A stretch of 41,056 bases of DNA from Nitrospirota bacterium (GTDB lineage: Bacteria; Nitrospirota; Thermodesulfovibrionia; Thermodesulfovibrionales; Magnetobacteriaceae), in the NCBI GenBank assembly GCA_015233015.1, contig JADFYO010000030.1, forward strand, positions 1 through 41,056. The letters run 5' to 3'. A model generated the notes under the pieces. The model worked only from the letters and a program-made list of their open reading frames with translations. It was not told where the DNA came from and did not search any database. Shown here piece by piece: positions 128 through 37,801 of the stretch. Position 1 is the stretch's first letter. Each line of letters begins with the position of its first letter. A program made the translations under genes and the position numbers.

Positions 128-240
128 ATTTGAACATTCACCCATTAATCATTGGATGGCAAAAAAGTTAGACATCATATCTGATAGAATTCATCTATAT
201 TTCTATAACGGAAGGAAAGAGAGAAATGCCAAGTGACCAC

Positions 241-266
241 CGGCTGGTCAGGGCATCGGCCAGCCG
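241..266 (-). terminator. hairpin just downstream of the small coiled-coil gene
   Basis: CGGCTGG (241-247) pairs with CCAGCCG (260-266), giving a 7-bp GC-rich stem with a 12-base loop. It lies two bases past the stop codon of the minus-strand gene ending at 269. No clear T-run follows on the minus strand, so it may be a 3'-end stabilising or partial terminator structure. The rest of the 128-268 gap shows nothing else I can name. Confidence 0.3.
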
Positions 267-268
267 TC

Positions 269-604
269 TCACTTCACAAAGAATTTTAAGGCGGCTATAA
301 GTATGCCGATTTGCGATACCCAGAAAAGAAACATCCATTTCAGTGTTTCAGCTTTGGAGTCGCTAATCTTCTCTACAAGTTTGGTCTCAAGTTTGGCAAG
401 GTCTTCTTTAGACGCCATTTCTTGACGGAGGGCAGTAGCCAAATCTTTTAAGTCTGACTTGGTTGCCATGTCCTTTATATCTGACTTGGTTGCTAAATCT
501 GTACGAGTATTAAGGCTGACTTCGCTGAACACGGTAAGAAGCGCGTCAACGCCGTCTTCCCCCAGCTTCTCTCTCAACACTCTTGGTATCGTTATCACGC
601 TCAT
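269..604 (-). CDS. small coiled-coil protein with C-terminal membrane anchor (Bdr/DUF1640-like architecture)
   Basis: About 111 residues; function unknown. The N-terminus is a conserved-looking block (SVITIPRVLREKLGEDGVD). Then come short charged repeats (ATKSDIKDM, ATKSDLKDL, further ALRQEMASKEDL units) predicted to form a coiled coil, and finally one hydrophobic segment (residues ~83-108) with a charged end. I chose the internal ATG at 604 because the homologous protein at 37224-37604 shares the block that begins MSV; the longer frame to 622 has no better ribosome site. It begins about 35 bases downstream of the polyvalent phage-type gene on the same strand, so cotranscription is likely. 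The layout resembles DUF1640/CCDC90 and Borrelia Bdr proteins in general form only; I do not claim homology to either. Confidence 0.7.
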   Translation of the reverse strand: MSVITIPRVLREKLGEDGVDALLTVFSEVSLNTRTDLATKSDIKDMATKSDLKDLATALRQEMASKEDLAKLETKLVEKISDSKAETLKWMFLFWVSQIGILIAALKFFVK

Positions 605-639
605 AGCTTGAGCATAACACAAGGGAAGGATTTAGTCAA

Positions 640-3600
640 CTATCTCCCTACCGCCGCCTTGTACTGCTGTATCGTAGCCGCGCGCTGCTTTAACGGCTCT
701 TTCGCAATTGCGCCCTGATACTTCTTTTGCAGTAACGGCCGTAACTTCTGTTTTTCATCGTCTGTAGCCACCTGATATACTTTAACTGCCTCGTCAAATC
801 CTAAATGACTGACGGCGGAGGTAAGCGGTGTCTGCGTCCGGGACTTCATAATATCAAGCCTATCCCGTGTGGACAGCTTATCCGCGTTGTCCTTCAACAT
901 CTGTTGCGCCGCCTGCGGATTAATTCTCATCTGCCGTTCTATGCTTTGTTTCAAGTCGTGCTTATCCTGCTGTTCCTGTGTACGCCCTGTCTGCGGCATC
1001 TTGGCTTGTATCATATTGCTCATCATGCGTTCAGCCGGTGTCTGGTTAATATACGTAGGGGCTTGTGTTATTCCAACCATAGGTAATAGCGTCTTCGCAT
1101 TGACCTGCCCGTTATTGAGCTTCATGCCTCGCTGTACGCCTCGTGCGGCGAATGGGATAAAGCCTTTGCCGACATGTTCAGCCAAAGATAACATCTGCTG
1201 AATAGCACCATCGTCCTCATTCCTTATTTTCGTGCCGTAGAAGTCCTTATTATGTAGCATCTCTGCCACAAGCTCAAGAGCAGGATGCAGCTTGTTGGCT
1301 AACGTCTGCCCTGGCTTCTGTGTATAAGACGCTATGTCCTTCATATATGACGGCAGCGTGACACGCTCTGGCCGGCCATGTTCGTCGAGATTGCCGGTCT
1401 TCGGGAAGTACAGGTCTTTCAAGTCGTCCGGCCCCTTGCCGGTTATCAGGTATTGCGTCGCCGCGCCCATTAGCCCTACCATAATCGGCATACCGATAAG
1501 ATACGAAGCCCGATAACTCATCATGTCGCCCGTGGGTTTCTCACCCTTTGCCAGCCGGACACCTGCATTGCCTATATCCTTAACGCCTCCAAGCATCTCT
1601 CTGAAGCTGCCTAAGTTCCAACCTACTGAACGAACAGAGGCCATCGCTATATCTTTGGTTGTCTTATTCCAGAACAGGTTATCGTAAACCAATTGCCCCA
1701 TGCGGTTGTCAACGCTATCCCACACCTTACCGGCCACTTGTCTTAGTTCCTCATGACTCATGTTCGGGTTATTTTTCATTTCCATTTCCATGATGTGATA
1801 AAATGAACCTAACTTCATACGAGGTACAAATCCCTCCATAATAGGCTTTGCAGCCTTTTCTACAAGGGCGGGGATAGCGTGCCATGCGGCAGTACCCCAT
1901 TGCTGCTGACGGATAGCCTTCATCATATTATCCCAAAGATGGGTTCGGTAGAATTCGTCCATGCGGGCGCGTCCACCGGCAGCCTGAAGGGCCTGTGCTA
2001 TATCGCCTATTTCACCCTGTCCTGTAGGATTGTACCATTCCTTCATTAGCTTATTGCCGGACTTCCAGTAATCGAAAGGAGCCGTAATCGAAAAAATCAT
2101 ATCCTTTGCCCCTGCGCCTACATCACCCCGGGCCGCCTTAAGCAGTCCAAGAGAAAACTTAGAGGCTATGGATTCAACCGTGATAAATCCGCCGTGAAAG
2201 GCCGATAACCCAAGCTGAAACTGATTTAGCACATTGGTCGCTCCGAGGTAGTCTCTAAATAATTGCGATTTATCGCGAAGCCCAGGGCTTAGGTAATTGT
2301 TTATCAGCCGTGCCGCCTCCGCCGGAGCGTAGTAATTACCCATGATTCTAAGCCCTGCAACCTTTTTAAACTCCTCTCCATGTATCACATCCTCTACGGA
2401 CTGACCGGTTATCTTTGCCATCTGTTCAGCTTCAACCCGCTCAGCGGGCGTTAAATCTGCTACTTTCATTTCACGCGGCCCGAACACGGTAGCTATCTTA
2501 TCGTCTATCTTTTGCCAGCCGTCAGGGGCTTTCTGGCCGGACGGTACATACTTGGCCAGCCCAACCTTTGGGGCTTTCATCTCATTCAGTGTCTTATGCG
2601 CCATGATATACTTGTCCATTTCTCTCATCTTGGCTAAGGCCATATCTATGGGATTATCAAAGGCCGGTTCTAAGCCGTACGCTAAGCCGTCTTTGACTGT
2701 CGGGATACTGCGCTTTTTAAGAAACGCCCCTGAACCTTCCATTGGCTGCTTTGCATAGAACTCAGCTATAAAATTCTTGGCCTGCTCAGGGTCTTTCCAT
2801 AAATGAGGGAAATAATCCTCAATTAGATTTTGGAGTTTGCCAGTTCCTAAATTCCGTACCTGCTTTACCCGTGCGTCAAGTAGTTCCTTTATCGTCTTTG
2901 CGGTCTCCTGTAGTTTCGGGTTAACCTGCCCCTTGCCAGTCTCATAGTTATCTATGAAGTCATAGTTGGACTGCTTATCCTGCTTGTCAAAGAAAGCGCG
3001 GGTATCTCTCATTGCGGACTCTGCTATGTCGTATTTCCTGACCATCTCCGCGGCGTTCTCTCTGACTATACCGCCAGTTGTTTTAGCCGCCTCACCCATA
3101 GACATAGGCGTTAATATGCTCTTTATCTCGTCTTTGCGTGTGCTAAATGCCTCTGATACAGTGTTAATAGCTTTGTTTTTCTCTTTTAACTGCTGCCATT
3201 TGGTTTTCGGTTGCTCCTCTTTGTCGGTCTCGTCTTTCTTTACAGAGTAATTAACTTCCGGCTCTGTGGCGCGTCCTTCTGCTTCCTTTCCCGCCAACTC
3301 CCCACGATACGCCTCACCGAATATATCGTTGACTGACTTAAACCCTCTATCGTTCAAGTAGTTCTTTAACTTTTCACCAAATTCAATTATCCGGTCAAAG
3401 ATACGCCGGACTAGGCCCTTTGGCTCTGTGTACCCTTTCTGCTCCGCTTCTTTGTTTAAGACGTAATCCCTGAACTTGTCGGCTATAGTCTCACTGACGG
3501 CCTCACCGTTGGCCTTAGCCTTTTTCGCATGAGCGGCTTTAAGTATCTCCATATCCTTGCTTCTGCCCATCGCCTCTAAGGTTTTCTGTATCCCGTGCCC

Positions 3601-5001
3601 GATTTCGTGTAATGAAGTATCCCGCATCTCTTCCGGCGACATCAATGACAGCTTGATTGAGTGCACGAGGTTGTCTTTGTCGAACTGGTGTGAACCGACG
3701 GCTATATCCTCACCGATTGTTTCAGGCGTCAAGCCATGCTTACTCAAGGCCGCCATGTCCTCTTCCGGTGTATGCTCCTTGCGGACATCGCCTTCAACGA
3801 ACTCCGTCTTAGTGTTTTCTCCAAGTATGCGCTTCTGTTCGTCTGTTATGTCCTTTTTGGTCTGGTCAAGAGCGCCTTCATTTTCGGGCTTGACAGGTTC
3901 GGCTGGGTGTGGTAGAGTAGAGTCATAGAGATGCCCGCCTGCACTGGTGGGGTGCTCCTGTGGCCTTGAGGCGGCAGGCTGAAGAACAGGTGCAGACTTA
4001 GGATATAGCACCTCACCTCTCTTGATAATTCCTTTCAAATCATTATTAGCGTCTTTGGGATGGCTGCTGATTGATATTTCCTTACCACCTTGTTGTATAG
4101 TTACTGACATAAAATATGTATTGCCGTCTTCATTCCTAAATGATTTGATAAAGATTTTTTTAGTATCTCTTTCTGCACCCTCTTTTGGGGCTTTCACTTC
4201 AACTATATATAAAGGCTCTGCCAATGTCGGCTTTATCAACCCAAAATACTTTTCTCTATTCCCTTTATCTTTAGTTTTTAGTTTCAGATACTGATTCATG
4301 CCAATAACTACATCCCCTTCAGGTGTCATAACTGTTCTATTTTCACCGAATTCGTTTTTCCAAGTTTCAGGCGTAAGCTCTAACTTTCTGAACGGAGTAG
4401 CATTATCTTTGAGAGTTTTCAATATCTCCTCATCTGTCAACTTCACAGTCGGCACTTCCTTCTGCTTCTTAATGTCATAGCTGGTGTCGCCTTTCGTCTT
4501 CATCCCCCGAATAGTCTCAATCTCGCTCACCTTCGGAATCTTCCCCTGAACCAGCCCCGCGTCCTTCAGTGCCGTCTTCTGGTCGGCTGTGAGCTTGGGA
4601 TATGCCTTACCGGTCTGTATGTCGGTTATGGCTGATTGAAGTGTGTCCGGCGAACCCTCACCCTGATTTAAGACAGTTACTCTTTTTAATCCACTATCCG
4701 ATTCCGGTTTCGGTTCACCTGCCCCTTCCATTTTGCTGGCGTCAGCAATATGGTCTGTGGACGCCTGTGGTTTAACCTTTGCCATTATATCAGCTATTTC
4801 ATTATCTTTAAGCCCTGCCATCTTTAAATTGCTTTCCATTTCAGCTAATTGCTCAGGCGTCATTTCTTGTTTATATTCAGTACGAGGTATAAAGGTTTCG
4901 TCATCTAACGGCTCTTTCTCTACGGTGTTTACAGATTTATCTTTTTGCATACTTTTAGTAATGTTCCTTGCTACATTGTACTGCGCTTCTGAATCCCACA
5001 T
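640..5001 (-). CDS. phage-type large polyvalent protein: PBECR RNase-like domain, HEIGH zincin, long LPD-like C-terminal region (5'-truncated)
   Basis: 1453 residues. Residues ~183-335 match the style of PBECR (phage Barnase-EndoU-Colicin/RelE-like) domains, with YFGLIKPTL, YIVEVK, KIFIKSF and ISSHP blocks ending in RGEVLY. Residues 465-469 are HEIGH, a zincin metallopeptidase site, followed at ~504 by SETIADKFRDYV, which can supply the third metal ligand. Residues ~600-1453 are helical and resemble the C-terminal domains of polyvalent proteins, which tailed phages and conjugative elements are thought to deliver into new hosts. The ATG at 5001 has no ribosome site. The frame stays open upstream (LAFLGYDDNDINK) until it meets the MITE-like repeat at ~5043, so the original N-terminus is probably lost. 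No capsid, terminase or tail genes are nearby: this is an isolated remnant. Domain names are from family knowledge (polyvalent proteins, Iyer and colleagues), not a profile search. Confidence 0.8.
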   Translation of the reverse strand: MWDSEAQYNVARNITKSMQKDKSVNTVEKEPLDDETFIPRTEYKQEMTPEQLAEMESNLKMAGLKDNEIADIMAKVKPQASTDHIADASKMEGAGEPKPESDSGLKRVTVLNQGEGSPDTLQSAITDIQTGKAYPKLTADQKTALKDAGLVQGKIPKVSEIETIRGMKTKGDTSYDIKKQKEVPTVKLTDEEILKTLKDNATPFRKLELTPETWKNEFGENRTVMTPEGDVVIGMNQYLKLKTKDKGNREKYFGLIKPTLAEPLYIVEVKAPKEGAERDTKKIFIKSFRNEDGNTYFMSVTIQQGGKEISISSHPKDANNDLKGIIKRGEVLYPKSAPVLQPAASRPQEHPTSAGGHLYDSTLPHPAEPVKPENEGALDQTKKDITDEQKRILGENTKTEFVEGDVRKEHTPEEDMAALSKHGLTPETIGEDIAVGSHQFDKDNLVHSIKLSLMSPEEMRDTSLHEIGHGIQKTLEAMGRSKDMEILKAAHAKKAKANGEAVSETIADKFRDYVLNKEAEQKGYTEPKGLVRRIFDRIIEFGEKLKNYLNDRGFKSVNDIFGEAYRGELAGKEAEGRATEPEVNYSVKKDETDKEEQPKTKWQQLKEKNKAINTVSEAFSTRKDEIKSILTPMSMGEAAKTTGGIVRENAAEMVRKYDIAESAMRDTRAFFDKQDKQSNYDFIDNYETGKGQVNPKLQETAKTIKELLDARVKQVRNLGTGKLQNLIEDYFPHLWKDPEQAKNFIAEFYAKQPMEGSGAFLKKRSIPTVKDGLAYGLEPAFDNPIDMALAKMREMDKYIMAHKTLNEMKAPKVGLAKYVPSGQKAPDGWQKIDDKIATVFGPREMKVADLTPAERVEAEQMAKITGQSVEDVIHGEEFKKVAGLRIMGNYYAPAEAARLINNYLSPGLRDKSQLFRDYLGATNVLNQFQLGLSAFHGGFITVESIASKFSLGLLKAARGDVGAGAKDMIFSITAPFDYWKSGNKLMKEWYNPTGQGEIGDIAQALQAAGGRARMDEFYRTHLWDNMMKAIRQQQWGTAAWHAIPALVEKAAKPIMEGFVPRMKLGSFYHIMEMEMKNNPNMSHEELRQVAGKVWDSVDNRMGQLVYDNLFWNKTTKDIAMASVRSVGWNLGSFREMLGGVKDIGNAGVRLAKGEKPTGDMMSYRASYLIGMPIMVGLMGAATQYLITGKGPDDLKDLYFPKTGNLDEHGRPERVTLPSYMKDIASYTQKPGQTLANKLHPALELVAEMLHNKDFYGTKIRNEDDGAIQQMLSLAEHVGKGFIPFAARGVQRGMKLNNGQVNAKTLLPMVGITQAPTYINQTPAERMMSNMIQAKMPQTGRTQEQQDKHDLKQSIERQMRINPQAAQQMLKDNADKLSTRDRLDIMKSRTQTPLTSAVSHLGFDEAVKVYQVATDDEKQKLRPLLQKKYQGAIAKEPLKQRAATIQQYKAAVGR

Positions 5002-5042
5002 TTTGTTTATATCGTTGTCATCATATCCTAAGAATGCCAGTA

Positions 5043-5157
5043 GGTGTCAGGTCTTGGCATGTGATATAATGACGCTGTTCGCATGAAATCTACACATACT
5101 ATCTGATAAAATGCAAGCCGTTTTATTTCTTATATCTCATGTCAACGGGCTGACACC
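5043..5157. mobile_element. 115-bp MITE-like element with ~27-bp imperfect terminal inverted repeats
   Basis: The left end reads GGTGTCAG (5043-5050) and the right end CTGACACC (5150-5157). When the right end is reverse-complemented, the two arms keep matching for about 27 bases (GGTGTCAG, then TTG[G/A]CATG, then GATATAA), with four substitutions and a one-base gap. There is no open frame inside. No target-site duplication is visible. The left boundary coincides with the point where the open frame of the polyvalent gene breaks off, and the right boundary lies 16 bases from the relE-like stop codon. Confidence 0.6.
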
Positions 5158-5172: not shown

Positions 5173-5427
5173 TTACCTGTATATATCTTTCCGATGACCT
5201 ATATCCAAAATAGTTACATCTTTTCTATTATCATCAATCTCATAAATAATGCGATAATCACCTATCCTAATACGCCAACCCTCTCTGCCTGATAATTTTT
5301 TGCAGCCATGCGGCCTTGGCTCATTTACAAGGGACTGTATTGATTGCTTAATATCCTTAAACACAGCGCCGCTTAACCCTGATAGCTCTTTCTGTGCCCT
5401 CCTTGAAATAAAAACATTATAACTCAC
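5173..5427 (-). CDS. RelE/ParE-superfamily toxin (putative mRNA interferase)
   Basis: 84 residues, the usual size of the family. It starts YNVFISRRAQKELSGL and has the core KKLSGREGWRIRIGDYRIIYEI, typical of RelE-fold toxins that cleave mRNA on the ribosome. The C-terminal VTILDIGHRKDIYR matches the RelE tail, where the basic/aromatic R..R-Y residues act in cleavage. The ATG overlaps the antitoxin stop by four bases (ATGA), so translation is coupled and the antitoxin is made first. The pair looks intact. Confidence 0.88.
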   Translation of the reverse strand: MSYNVFISRRAQKELSGLSGAVFKDIKQSIQSLVNEPRPHGCKKLSGREGWRIRIGDYRIIYEIDDNRKDVTILDIGHRKDIYR

Positions 5428-5627
5428 TTCCGCGCTTCTTCAATTTCCCTGAGAGCCTGGTCTAGTGGTATTACCTCATCCCCCGACGCTTTTGCGGCAT
5501 CATAGGCTCTGATGCATTCCAGCTCTTCGAACTCTTTAAGTAGTTTCTCATAGTCTTCGATTGAAAAAATAACACCTGTACGGTTGCCTTTATCGTCTAT
5601 AATGAATTGCTCACTAAGTATGCTCAT
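5424..5627 (-). CDS. Phd/YefM-like antitoxin of the RelE-type toxin
   Basis: 67 residues. The pattern FIIDDKGNRTGVIFSIEDYEKLL is that of type II antitoxins paired with RelE-fold toxins (Phd/YefM/RelB-like): an N-terminal DNA-binding strand-helix part, then an acidic helical tail (EELECIRAYDAAK...) that would wrap the toxin. A strong GGAGG lies six bases before the ATG. The toxin follows with a four-base overlap. Such antitoxins normally repress their own promoter, but no clear operator is visible in the 58-base gap to the Rpn gene. Confidence 0.82.
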   Translation of the reverse strand: MSILSEQFIIDDKGNRTGVIFSIEDYEKLLKEFEELECIRAYDAAKASGDEVIPLDQALREIEEARK

Positions 5628-5685
5628 TTTTATCCTCCATCGTCAACTTGTGAACATTAAAAAAAGCTGCCTGTCCCCCTTCATT

Positions 5686-6507
5686 CTAATTCCCCAAAAA
5701 TTCCTTCAGCTTATCCAGCGAATCGGCCTTCTTGATAAGATTTTTGAATTCCTCCAGTTTGTCTGCTGAATTTACAATTCTAACCCTATCCATCAACTCA
5801 AGCCCGGCTGAACCATATTTGAGTTCAAGCATTCCTTCAATTATACCCAACCGCTCACCTTCAACCTTGCCTTCAACCCTGCCTTCCTGAAAAATATCGC
5901 TGTTTCGTACATCAATCGTTATAGGCATCTTACTTACCTCCATTTTAACTTTAGGATATAATTTACGTAAATCAGAAAGATATAGCAATTTTCTGATATA
6001 ACCTTCTCTTTCTTTCAGTGGCAGTCTGGACAGTTTATCGAGGATGCTTCTTATGAGGGCGTCCACATCCCTGGTTTTACACAATATCGCCAACACTATA
6101 TCTTCAGGGGAATCACTTTCAAGGAGCTGGCAGCAGTCAATCTCCCTTATATCAATCAATTTATAGGAGTATTTGACCCCTTCGCCTTCCATATGATTTT
6201 GCATGTTCAGAGGTTCATTACCGACATAAAGCAATATCTGTACGGGTAATTTCTTGTGTTGATTGTATATAAATCCAGAATATAAATACATCCGCTCCAG
6301 CATAGTGTTATCGTTTTGGGATTGAATCTCGACATGGAGTAATTTCCCACCTTCTACTTCAAGCGCTAAGTCAGGCTCTCTCAATTGAATATCTGGAAAC
6401 TGCACATCTACAAACCTGCCGGTTTCATATCCGGTAATGAGCTTCAGGAATACTTTAGGAACATCTTTCAATATATCTTTTAAGGTAATATCATATTTTT
6501 GATGCAT
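5686..6507 (-). CDS. Rpn family recombination-promoting nuclease / PD-(D/E)XK putative transposase
   Basis: 273 residues from the ATG at 6507, which has GAGGG just upstream; an in-frame ATG at 6567 lacks one. After an N-terminal helical stretch (KYDITLKDILKDVPKVFLKLI), the core EPDLALEV...LLHVEIQSQND carries the PD-(D/E)XK nuclease D and E-x-Q residues of Rpn proteins. The tail contains the GxxEGxxxGxxEG repeat and ends LKEFLGN, as in Rpn/DUF4351 proteins. Rpn proteins are DNA endonucleases linked to recA-independent recombination and phage defence, and often occur as many paralogues. It precedes the toxin-antitoxin pair by 58 bases on the same strand. Confidence 0.82.
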   Translation of the reverse strand: MHQKYDITLKDILKDVPKVFLKLITGYETGRFVDVQFPDIQLREPDLALEVEGGKLLHVEIQSQNDNTMLERMYLYSGFIYNQHKKLPVQILLYVGNEPLNMQNHMEGEGVKYSYKLIDIREIDCCQLLESDSPEDIVLAILCKTRDVDALIRSILDKLSRLPLKEREGYIRKLLYLSDLRKLYPKVKMEVSKMPITIDVRNSDIFQEGRVEGKVEGERLGIIEGMLELKYGSAGLELMDRVRIVNSADKLEEFKNLIKKADSLDKLKEFLGN

Positions 6508-6637
6508 ATTCCCTCGTTTTTTCAGATCTCTACAATTAATAAGAATCTCCTGCACATGCAGAAGCACCCTTGAATGTATTTTACCATGTCAGGATTCTTT
6601 TTTGCCTGCCTGACCTGATGGCCGTAAAAGTTATTTA

Positions 6638-35346: not shown

Positions 35347-35355
35347 TTGACGCCG

Positions 35356-37158
35356 ATGAGAATACTTCAGCTTATTTATGAGAGTTACGGCAGTCCGTTT
35401 GGATTTGGCGGGGCGGGCGTGCGTGCCTGTGAGATTTATAACAGGCTCAAAGACAGGCACGATATCACCCTTTTGTGTATGGCATATCCGGGGGCAAGGG
35501 ACGGCCTTATCGAAGGCTTAACTCACAAATTCGCCGGTACCGGAAGCAAAAGCCTGACCAAAAGCGTCCTGTCATATACTGTACAATCCTCGCTGTTCGT
35601 AAAGAAACATGGGGGGGAATACGATGTGATAGTTGAGAATTTCCTGCCTTCAACGCCTTTTTTCTCAAAACTCCTGACGAAAACCCCGGTAGTCCTGCAA
35701 GTTCAGGGTATAATGGAGCATCACTCGATAAAGAAATTCAACCCGCTGTATTCCATTCCCATGTATGCGGTGGAGAGTTTTTATCCAGCCTTATATGACA
35801 CGCTGATGTTCGTCTCAGATGTGACCAGAGATAAGGTAATGTCGCGGCGCGGCATGAAAGGCTGTACTCATACGGTAATTCCAAACGGTATAGACGCCCG
35901 GCTGCTCTACATCACCCCTGACGCCTCCCGTTCTGAAAACAAGTACATCCTGTTTTTCAGCAGAATAGATATCTACACAAAAGGGCTTGATCTGTTAGTT
36001 GCGGCATTCAGAGAGATAAACAGGCATTTCCCCAATATGAAGCTCATCCTCGCCGGATATGAATTCGACAAGGCCGATGCCCTAATAGCAAGTGTCCCCT
36101 CAGCGGTGGCAGAAAAAATAGAATATGCCGGATTTGTAACCGGCCCTGCGAAGAAATCCCTGCTTGGCAATGCCATGATATTTGTCCTGCCGTCGCGGCA
36201 CGAGTCCTCGCCGGTGAGCATATTAGAGGCCGCCGCGTGCGCGGTGCCGGTAGTAACGAGCGACATTGGGGAGCTTTCTTTTGTTGCGCGAAATCACATC
36301 GGGCTGTCTTTTAAAAGTGGTAACAGAGCTGACCTTGCCGCGGTCCTGTTAAAACTTATAAGAGACGCCGCCACGCGCGTGAGCCTTGGCGAAAACGGGA
36401 GAGACTACGCAAGGGGTTTTCTATGGGACGAGATTGCCGTTAGTTTTGAGAAGCAACTGTTAAGTGTAGCAGGCAATCAAATGTCTGGACATGAGAACGC
36501 ATTAAAGAAGCAGGGGGAAGTTCCTACCGTCAAGTTGACTAATGATGAGATATTAAAGAGTTTTAAAGACAAAGCCGCTCCTTTCAGAAATGTTAAGCTT
36601 ACGCCGCAGAGTTGGAAGGCTGAGTTTGGAGAAAACCAAGTTGTCGATACACCTGTTGGCGACGTGAAAATTGGTAATAACCAGTATCTAAAACTAAAGG
36701 GTAAAAACAGAGAACAATATTTTGGATTGATTAAGCCTACCTTGTCTGACCCTTTATATGTGGTTGAAGTTAGAGACCACAAAGAGGGGGCAGAAAGGGA
36801 TTCAAAGCGGATTTATATAAAGCCATTCGTTGATAAAAACAAAAATACGTACTTCACATCAATCACTGTTCAAAAAAATGGGAAAGAAATATCAATAAGT
36901 AGTCATCCTAAAGAGTCGGCACCTCTGATTAAGATAATCAAGGAAGGCAGAATCAAGGAAGGCAGGGTGTTATATTCTACGGCTGCCCGTGAAATCTACA
37001 CTGCTGCCTCAATGCTTCACGAACACCCCGCCGAAGCAGGCAGACTTCTTGATACTTCTACTCTACCACAAACCACCGAACCTGTCAAGGGAAAAAATGA
37101 ACCAGAAGAGGACGCCTTTCTCAAAACCGCCCGAATGATAAATCATTCAGGACAATAG
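35356..37158 (+). CDS. GT4 glycosyltransferase fused to a phage-type PBECR (RNase-like) domain
   Basis: 600 residues from the ATG at 35356; a TTG at 35347 is possible. Residues 1-~372 are a full GT4 enzyme: GGAGVRACEIYNRL, VIPNGID, FSRIDIYTKGLDLLV, and the donor motif SRHESSPVSILEAAACAVPVV with two Glu seven apart. GT4 proteins normally end about here. The frame instead runs on (NQMSGHENALKKQGEVPTVKL). Residues ~388-541 match the PBECR domain of the polyvalent protein at 640-5001 block by block: EVPTVKLT, TPFR/APFR, FGLIKPTL, EGAERD, ISSHP, GRVLY. A shared Pro-rich tail (HEHPAEAGR, STLPxxxEPVK) follows. Codons in the two copies differ widely, so the duplication is old. An ATG at 36481 could also start the domain separately. 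Function of the fusion is unknown. Confidence 0.85.
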   Translation: MRILQLIYESYGSPFGFGGAGVRACEIYNRLKDRHDITLLCMAYPGARDGLIEGLTHKFAGTGSKSLTKSVLSYTVQSSLFVKKHGGEYDVIVENFLPSTPFFSKLLTKTPVVLQVQGIMEHHSIKKFNPLYSIPMYAVESFYPALYDTLMFVSDVTRDKVMSRRGMKGCTHTVIPNGIDARLLYITPDASRSENKYILFFSRIDIYTKGLDLLVAAFREINRHFPNMKLILAGYEFDKADALIASVPSAVAEKIEYAGFVTGPAKKSLLGNAMIFVLPSRHESSPVSILEAAACAVPVVTSDIGELSFVARNHIGLSFKSGNRADLAAVLLKLIRDAATRVSLGENGRDYARGFLWDEIAVSFEKQLLSVAGNQMSGHENALKKQGEVPTVKLTNDEILKSFKDKAAPFRNVKLTPQSWKAEFGENQVVDTPVGDVKIGNNQYLKLKGKNREQYFGLIKPTLSDPLYVVEVRDHKEGAERDSKRIYIKPFVDKNKNTYFTSITVQKNGKEISISSHPKESAPLIKIIKEGRIKEGRVLYSTAAREIYTAASMLHEHPAEAGRLLDTSTLPQTTEPVKGKNEPEEDAFLKTARMINHSGQ

Positions 37159-37604: not shown

Positions 37605-37738
37605 ATCCTTATTATAACCCATGGCCTGATACTTGTCAACCATCTCCCGCTGAACGGAATTCGTACAGCATCCCGCCCCGTCCGAAATATTTTTTTGAGG
37701 TATTGTTATAAACTATAGAGAAAGCCGTAATATGGTCG

Positions 37739-37796
37739 CATCCTTCGACAGGCTCAGGATGATTCTAATGGTCGCATCCTGAGCTTGTCGAAGGAT
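37739..37796. repeat. second inverted pair of CATCCT...AGGATG palindromic repeats
   Basis: The copies at 37739-37761 and 37775-37796 face each other with a 13-base loop and can form a ~22-bp hairpin. They are the same repeat as at 11693-11770. The pair ends five bases past the stop of the SPFH gene (minus strand), where it could act as a terminator or protect the transcript end. Confidence 0.8.
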
Positions 37797-37801
37797 TAGT
37801 G

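Follow-up and report, generated by a model that had tools for sequence, protein, structure and literature searches.

Polyvalent (pro)phage proteins, as described by Iyer et al. in 2017 (PMC5512222), are large multidomain proteins in which a PBECR nuclease and an HExxH motif can occur together; host-captured remnants and polyvalent proteins outside selfish elements were described in the same work, and a use against superinfecting phages was proposed for the latter. In another field, a Y1 transposase flanked by inverted repetitive extragenic palindromic (REP) sequences is the arrangement that defines the RAYTs (PMC2817692), and paired non-autonomous REP copies are the REPINs (PMC3116915). Here, we analysed a stretch of 41,056 nt (the window), which is contig C73 of the 3.78 Mb draft genome (99% complete, 149 contigs) of a Magnetominusculus-like Nitrospirota bacterium; records of the genus include "Nitrospirae bacterium nDJH5bin4" and "Candidatus Magnetominusculus sp. 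LBB02". In this window, an open reading frame (ORF) of a polyvalent protein (640..5001, minus strand) stands next to a REPIN-like element (5043..5157). We consider it highly probable that this ORF is the 5'-truncated prophage remnant of a gene for a polyvalent internal (ejection) virion protein, cut by recombination at the REPIN. As in the proteins of PMC5512222, the window protein is large and multidomain, combines a PBECR nuclease with an HExxH motif, and has relatives encoded behind virion genes; unlike them, its gene is 5'-truncated, and its C-terminal domain of about 830 residues has no Pfam or PHROG match.

The ORF is unbroken over 1453 codons from an internal methionine (MWDSEAQ), and its product is 79% identical to the relatives L031/L035 over residues 588-1466. 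The first-pass annotation of this DNA had claimed that more than 1400 codons are open and that the frame continues 5' of the first ATG with gene sequence, and both points were borne out: the frame is open past the ATG up to position 5040 (LAFLGYDDNDINK followed by M), i.e. 1466 open codons in total, before it is closed by a TGA within the CTGACACC end of the inverted-repeat element, and the residual coding sequence upstream of the ATG (LGYDDNDINK; 5002..5030, minus strand) is homologous to an intact gene of a sister species (genome G005). The comparison with this species provides the following lines of evidence. First, on G005 contig C54 (locus L062), identity to the window protein is 87.5% over the first 72 aligned residues, and window positions 4822-5030 are 96.2% identical in DNA to L062 positions 3471-3679, the homology stopping at 5030. 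Second, the L062 gene probably starts at MIEATP, 557 residues before the LGYDDND motif, and has the MWDSEAQ methionine in its interior; full-length homologues that also begin at this methionine had been named as the observation that would speak against a lost start, and the G005 relative does not begin there. Third, a gap-free second contig of G005 (L063) carries the same N-terminal region (93% identical, 154 residues) and the same middle region in one frame. Because the intact relative reads on upstream, with the MWDSEAQ methionine inside the protein, the sequences indicate that the window gene is really 5'-truncated, with the loss of its start and of at least 557 codons, as the annotation had claimed. 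The N-terminal piece, which had been suggested as something to look for elsewhere, was not found: a 563-residue N-terminal query gave no match in the window's own genome, a search run with no positive control, so that the absence holds only at that sensitivity.

Between the end of homology and the element lies a junction of 12 bp (5031..5042) with no ungapped match to the intact gene. By ungapped alignment, the residues LAF at this junction are not gene sequence (the relative has LKA); a 3-bp gap would carry the homology to 5037, i.e. by up to 6 bp. The gene had been said to break exactly where the 115-bp element begins; the adjacency stands, and the exactness does not, the homology ending 6-12 bp short of the element. 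By our own arithmetic, the chance that a break falls 6-12 bp from one of about 15 REPIN arms in 3.78 Mb is about 1e-4.

The element consists of two inverted REP arms (GGTGTCAGGTCTTGgCATGTGATATAATGAcg ... CATGTCAaCgggCTGACACC) of about 30 bp, with the consensus GGTGTCAGGTCTTGrCATGTGAyAT, placed round a variable loop that differs in each REPIN copy. As single-stranded DNA it folds with z = -4.8, none of 200 shuffled sequences folding as well. The arm has about 15 copies in the 3.78 Mb genome at up to 3 mismatches (the reversed control pattern has 0), two further inverted arm doublets occur on contigs C81 and C109, and two arms in inverted orientation flank a RAYT-type Y1 transposase gene of 328 codons (C76:22134-23147; L077). 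The locus thus shares with the REPIN/RAYT system (PMC2817692, PMC3116915) palindromic arms in inverted pairs able to form a hairpin, a cognate RAYT gene (PF01797) between two inverted REPs, and non-autonomous copies elsewhere; unlike that system, it has about 15 arm copies instead of hundreds, a GTAG tag at this copy and one other only, and a Nitrospirota host. These few copies and the restricted occurrence of the GTAG tag are the reason why we call the element REPIN-like only.

Two simple roles for the element, both raised in the first-pass annotation, were rejected. A new promoter brought by the element is not supported, since promoter-like sites between 4800 and 5800 (5, one of them inside the element on the plus strand) are no more numerous than the 3.2 ± 1.8 expected from shuffles, and no evident Shine-Dalgarno sequence was found at the MWDSEAQ ATG. 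Nor is a plain insertion a sufficient cause of the lost start, since the far side of the element carries a relBE-like pair and no sequence of the polyvalent gene, and since the search of the genome for the N-terminal piece gave no match. The REPIN might instead have jumped into the intact gene, and a second event would later have put the relBE region in place of its far half. The REPIN does directly adjoin the break; this course nevertheless takes two events, movement of the IS200/IS605 type would not be expected to remove flanking DNA, and no trace of the polyvalent gene is left on the far side. We regard it as possible, though rather unlikely, and from the present data it cannot be told apart from a one-step recombination at the REPIN. 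The junction at 5031-5042 could also be a misjoin at the repeated REP arm: the genome is a 149-contig draft, the repeat is dispersed, and the contig ends about 270 bp past the small ORF downstream of the polyvalent gene. Such an artefact is very improbable, in that an arm of about 30 bp with a copy-specific loop is too short to mislead an ordinary assembler, and the missing N-terminal piece, which a misjoin would leave behind, was not found on other contigs.

The phage nature of the gene emerges from its domains and from the context of its relatives. The PBECR2 predicted RNase domain (4003..4353, minus strand) matches Pfam PF18810 at residues 218-333 (E 5e-11; 43.3 bits versus a gathering score of 27.1), and the alignment of this segment shows a conserved Arg (NREKYFGLIKPTL) and Ser/Thr (SVTIQ), which appear consistent with the predicted active residues of PBECR2. 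The HEIGH (HExxH) motif of a predicted zincin-like metallopeptidase (3595..3609, minus strand) is kept in the relatives L062, L063, L064 and L024; its region has no Pfam profile match. The PHROGs and NCBIfam profiles returned nothing for the whole protein, which also had no match among 50,697 phage records, where its C-terminal part gave only one chance-level match (E 1). Rfam had no match anywhere in the window.

The C-terminal domain (640..3240, minus strand), an all-helical domain of phage polyvalent ejection proteins by its occurrence in viral contigs and its predicted fold, is present in at least 131 IMG/VR contigs and lies at the C-terminal end in the 80 of them that were fetched. In the viral contigs where the start lies inside the contig, it is preceded by 146 to 3250 residues (median 1037). 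Its AlphaFold2 model is confident (pLDDT 83, pTM 0.80) and nearly all helical; in BFVD it matches 46 viral proteins at E <= 1e-3 (best 1.7e-15), for many of which the annotation is that of a large polyvalent protein. Against the PDB, this model gave nothing convincing, with a best E of 0.25 in Foldseek and a best Z of 5.8 (65 residues) in VIA-align; this does not establish a new fold. The analysis thereby exposes a large domain family of phage ejection-type proteins with no solved relative found. A prophage protein of Megasphaera paucivorans (L032, 4055 residues) has a C-terminal domain 46% identical to residues 611-1439 of the window protein; unlike the latter, its N-terminal part bears SLT, ddrB-ParB, LPD5, LPD1 and MuF_C domains.

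Polyvalent proteins are recognized by the presence of at least two unrelated effector or virion domains in one polypeptide and by a place among virion structural genes or in a conjugative element. The window protein has PBECR2 (by Pfam) and the C-terminal polyvalent domain (by fold), in addition to the HEIGH motif. As for the context, a relative (L125) sits behind genes for the major head protein and a tail protein, and a copy in the window's own genome, on contig C105, sits behind a virion structural protein gene; the window copy stands alone. On these grounds, the best reading is a podovirus-type ejection polyvalent protein in the sense of PMC5512222. The gene had been called isolated, with no other phage structural gene nearby. 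The second statement is right, though the window also contains another PBECR2 fragment and a small co-travelling ORF; the first holds locally and fails for the genome, which has at least 5 other fragments or copies, one of them in the same window at 36466-37113. The second polyvalent gene, that on C105 (genome G000; L023 6450-11474) with virion genes before it, is now split by a frameshift near L023 10650-10820.

Regarding age, the first 209 bp of the gene are 96% identical to G005 versus about 82% for core genes, in line with the earlier claim of recency in so far as the relevant piece was acquired recently. The synonymous divergence (dS) to G005 is 0.10 over the first 72 codons, a small sample, versus 0.70 for the neighbouring core gene of acetolactate decarboxylase, and the sequence was therefore exchanged between the two species recently, as phage genes would be. 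The truncation is probably recent too. The ratio of non-synonymous to synonymous divergence (dN/dS) to L035 is about 0.07 over residues 588-1466, with dS saturated; such a low value shows a constrained protein, presumably constrained mostly during its time in phages. Alternatively, the truncated protein could have been captured as an effector, kept and used by the bacterium, for instance against superinfecting phages; the truncation would then have fixed it as an intracellular protein, transcribed from the relBE side. An open frame of 1466 codons, the low dN/dS, the common strand of the polyvalent gene and the upstream relBE-like pair, and the existence of a described host-captured class (PMC5512222) are in keeping with such a capture. 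We nevertheless find it improbable: the sharing with G005 is recent, so that the low dN/dS reflects selection in phages; the ATG has no Shine-Dalgarno sequence and the region no promoter excess; and no second genome with the same truncated form was found among the relatives' genomes searched.

Four points weigh against a prophage remnant cut at the REPIN. The frame is intact over its 1466 codons, whereas a remnant should eventually decay; the number of residues before the C-terminal domain varies from 146 to 3250 in viral contigs, which leaves room for a shorter form that still works; there are only about 15 REP copies, without a general GTAG tag; and L062 has a 346-N gap just 3' of the shared N-terminal piece, so that the continuity of the intact gene also leans on L063. 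We still favour the prophage remnant and propose the following course. In the intact phage protein, the N-terminal region, Gly/Ala-rich and longer than 550 residues, and the large helical domain at the C-terminus probably serve packaging and ejection into the host. There, a swappable nuclease cassette, here PBECR2, and the HEIGH zincin probably act as effectors, the first by cleaving RNA and the second by releasing domains through proteolysis, as their families suggest. Recombination at the REPIN, which adjoins the break, would then have taken away the N-terminal part and the rest of the prophage, so that the gene now adjoins the relBE-like pair, in a stretch downstream of Nramp that is variable. 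The data fit such a removal of the upstream part by recombination at the REPIN, in whichever order the events took place. As a phage protein the remnant has most likely lost its function; any expression would begin at an internal methionine or come from upstream read-through. The locus would thus be one example, with an intact relative, of a phage effector gene shortened at a REPIN; few studies of REPINs exist for this group.

The region around PBECR2 exposes several nuclease cassettes that replace one another. Conserved flanks, GKAYPKLTADQK...KK and T.PHP.EPVK, enclose different cassettes in different polyvalent copies (grouped by eye): PBECR2 in the window gene, a SAPIRL/KIHL-type segment in L062 and on contig C39, and others on contig C113 and in L065, the C113 cassette still scoring as PBECR2 in the profile search. 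Similarly, PBECR-type cassettes are shuffled within one protein family in the Helicobacter jhp1044-type polyvalent proteins (PMC5512222); unlike that type, here the conserved flanks enclose one or another of several different cassettes, and non-phage host genes also contain the PBECR2 module. In the window itself, Pfam shows a family 4 glycosyltransferase (GT4) whose C-terminus continues in frame into a PBECR2 module of this subfamily (35347..37158, plus strand). The extension is of 230 residues; orthologues (369-429 residues) have no module, those of congeners stopping near residue 375. Between this GT4 and the Band-7 gene lies an insert of about 1.2 kb that comprises PBECR2 and a LA_3696-like ORF. 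An inverted TCCTTCGACAGGCTCAGGATGA-type repeat lies at 37731-37797, between the GT4 insert and the Band-7 gene, and a similar repeat occurs at the same place in genome G002 (L081).

In LBB02 (JAKOEO010000026; L067/L033 5718-7298), a PBECR2 segment of the same subfamily, about 220 residues long, lies inside a variable loop of a family 2 glycosyltransferase (GT2), which resumes in frame after it; the chimera has 526 residues versus 301-318 in intact orthologues. No REP arms occur in L067 near this insert, and the structure prediction of the chimera is poor (pLDDT 33, shallow alignment). In a third genome (G013:C2; L044 1255-1896, minus strand), a RelE/ParE-like sequence (identified by eye) runs in frame into the C-terminal half of a PBECR2 module, again of this subfamily, after which come repeated TGGPLYRRAPLQAGPF units. 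PBECR2 is not a mobile element with fixed ends, because its borders differ between cases; illegitimate recombination and the survival of in-frame products would be enough to explain the host fusions. The PBECR2 segment could also be a dispersing, frame-keeping cassette, swapped among phage polyvalent genes and landing in frame in unrelated host genes, the decapitated window gene being one further product of the same recombination. We think this unlikely; if true, host enzymes would carry a phage RNase domain. The loss of a viral gene of this sort is an ordinary fate and the in-frame fusion of PBECR2 into unrelated host genes less so; provided that the junctions are confirmed by reads, these fusions are the part that deserves a second study. 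If the glycosyltransferase fusions are real and expressed, they would make it possible to test a case in which toxin domains of phages have been spliced into functioning host genes.

On the far side of the REPIN-like element follow, in that order, a RelE/StbE-like toxin ORF (5173..5439, minus strand; NCBIfam TIGR02385, E 5e-6, just below the cut-off), a small ORF that is its probable antitoxin partner by position only (5424..5642, minus strand), an Rpn-like ORF, and Nramp. The Rpn/PD-(D/E)XK transposase-like ORF (5686-6567, minus strand) belongs to a gene family of which the genomes of this bacterial family contain dozens of copies and fragments, and both the relBE-like and the Rpn-like sequences of this flank are dispersed families. 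The 3' side of Nramp is a breakpoint, different in five of the five congeners examined; because it breaks in all of them, no empty site was identifiable by synteny. On the other side of the polyvalent gene, a small LA_3696-like coiled-coil/membrane ORF (269..622, minus strand) has a related ORF also 3' of the polyvalent gene in G005; with 22 matches across the genome, it is unlikely to be a specific immunity gene. The start of the contig (1-120) resembles, by eye, the end of an IS66-type transposase gene, and a related sequence occurs at the end of contig C103 (L020).

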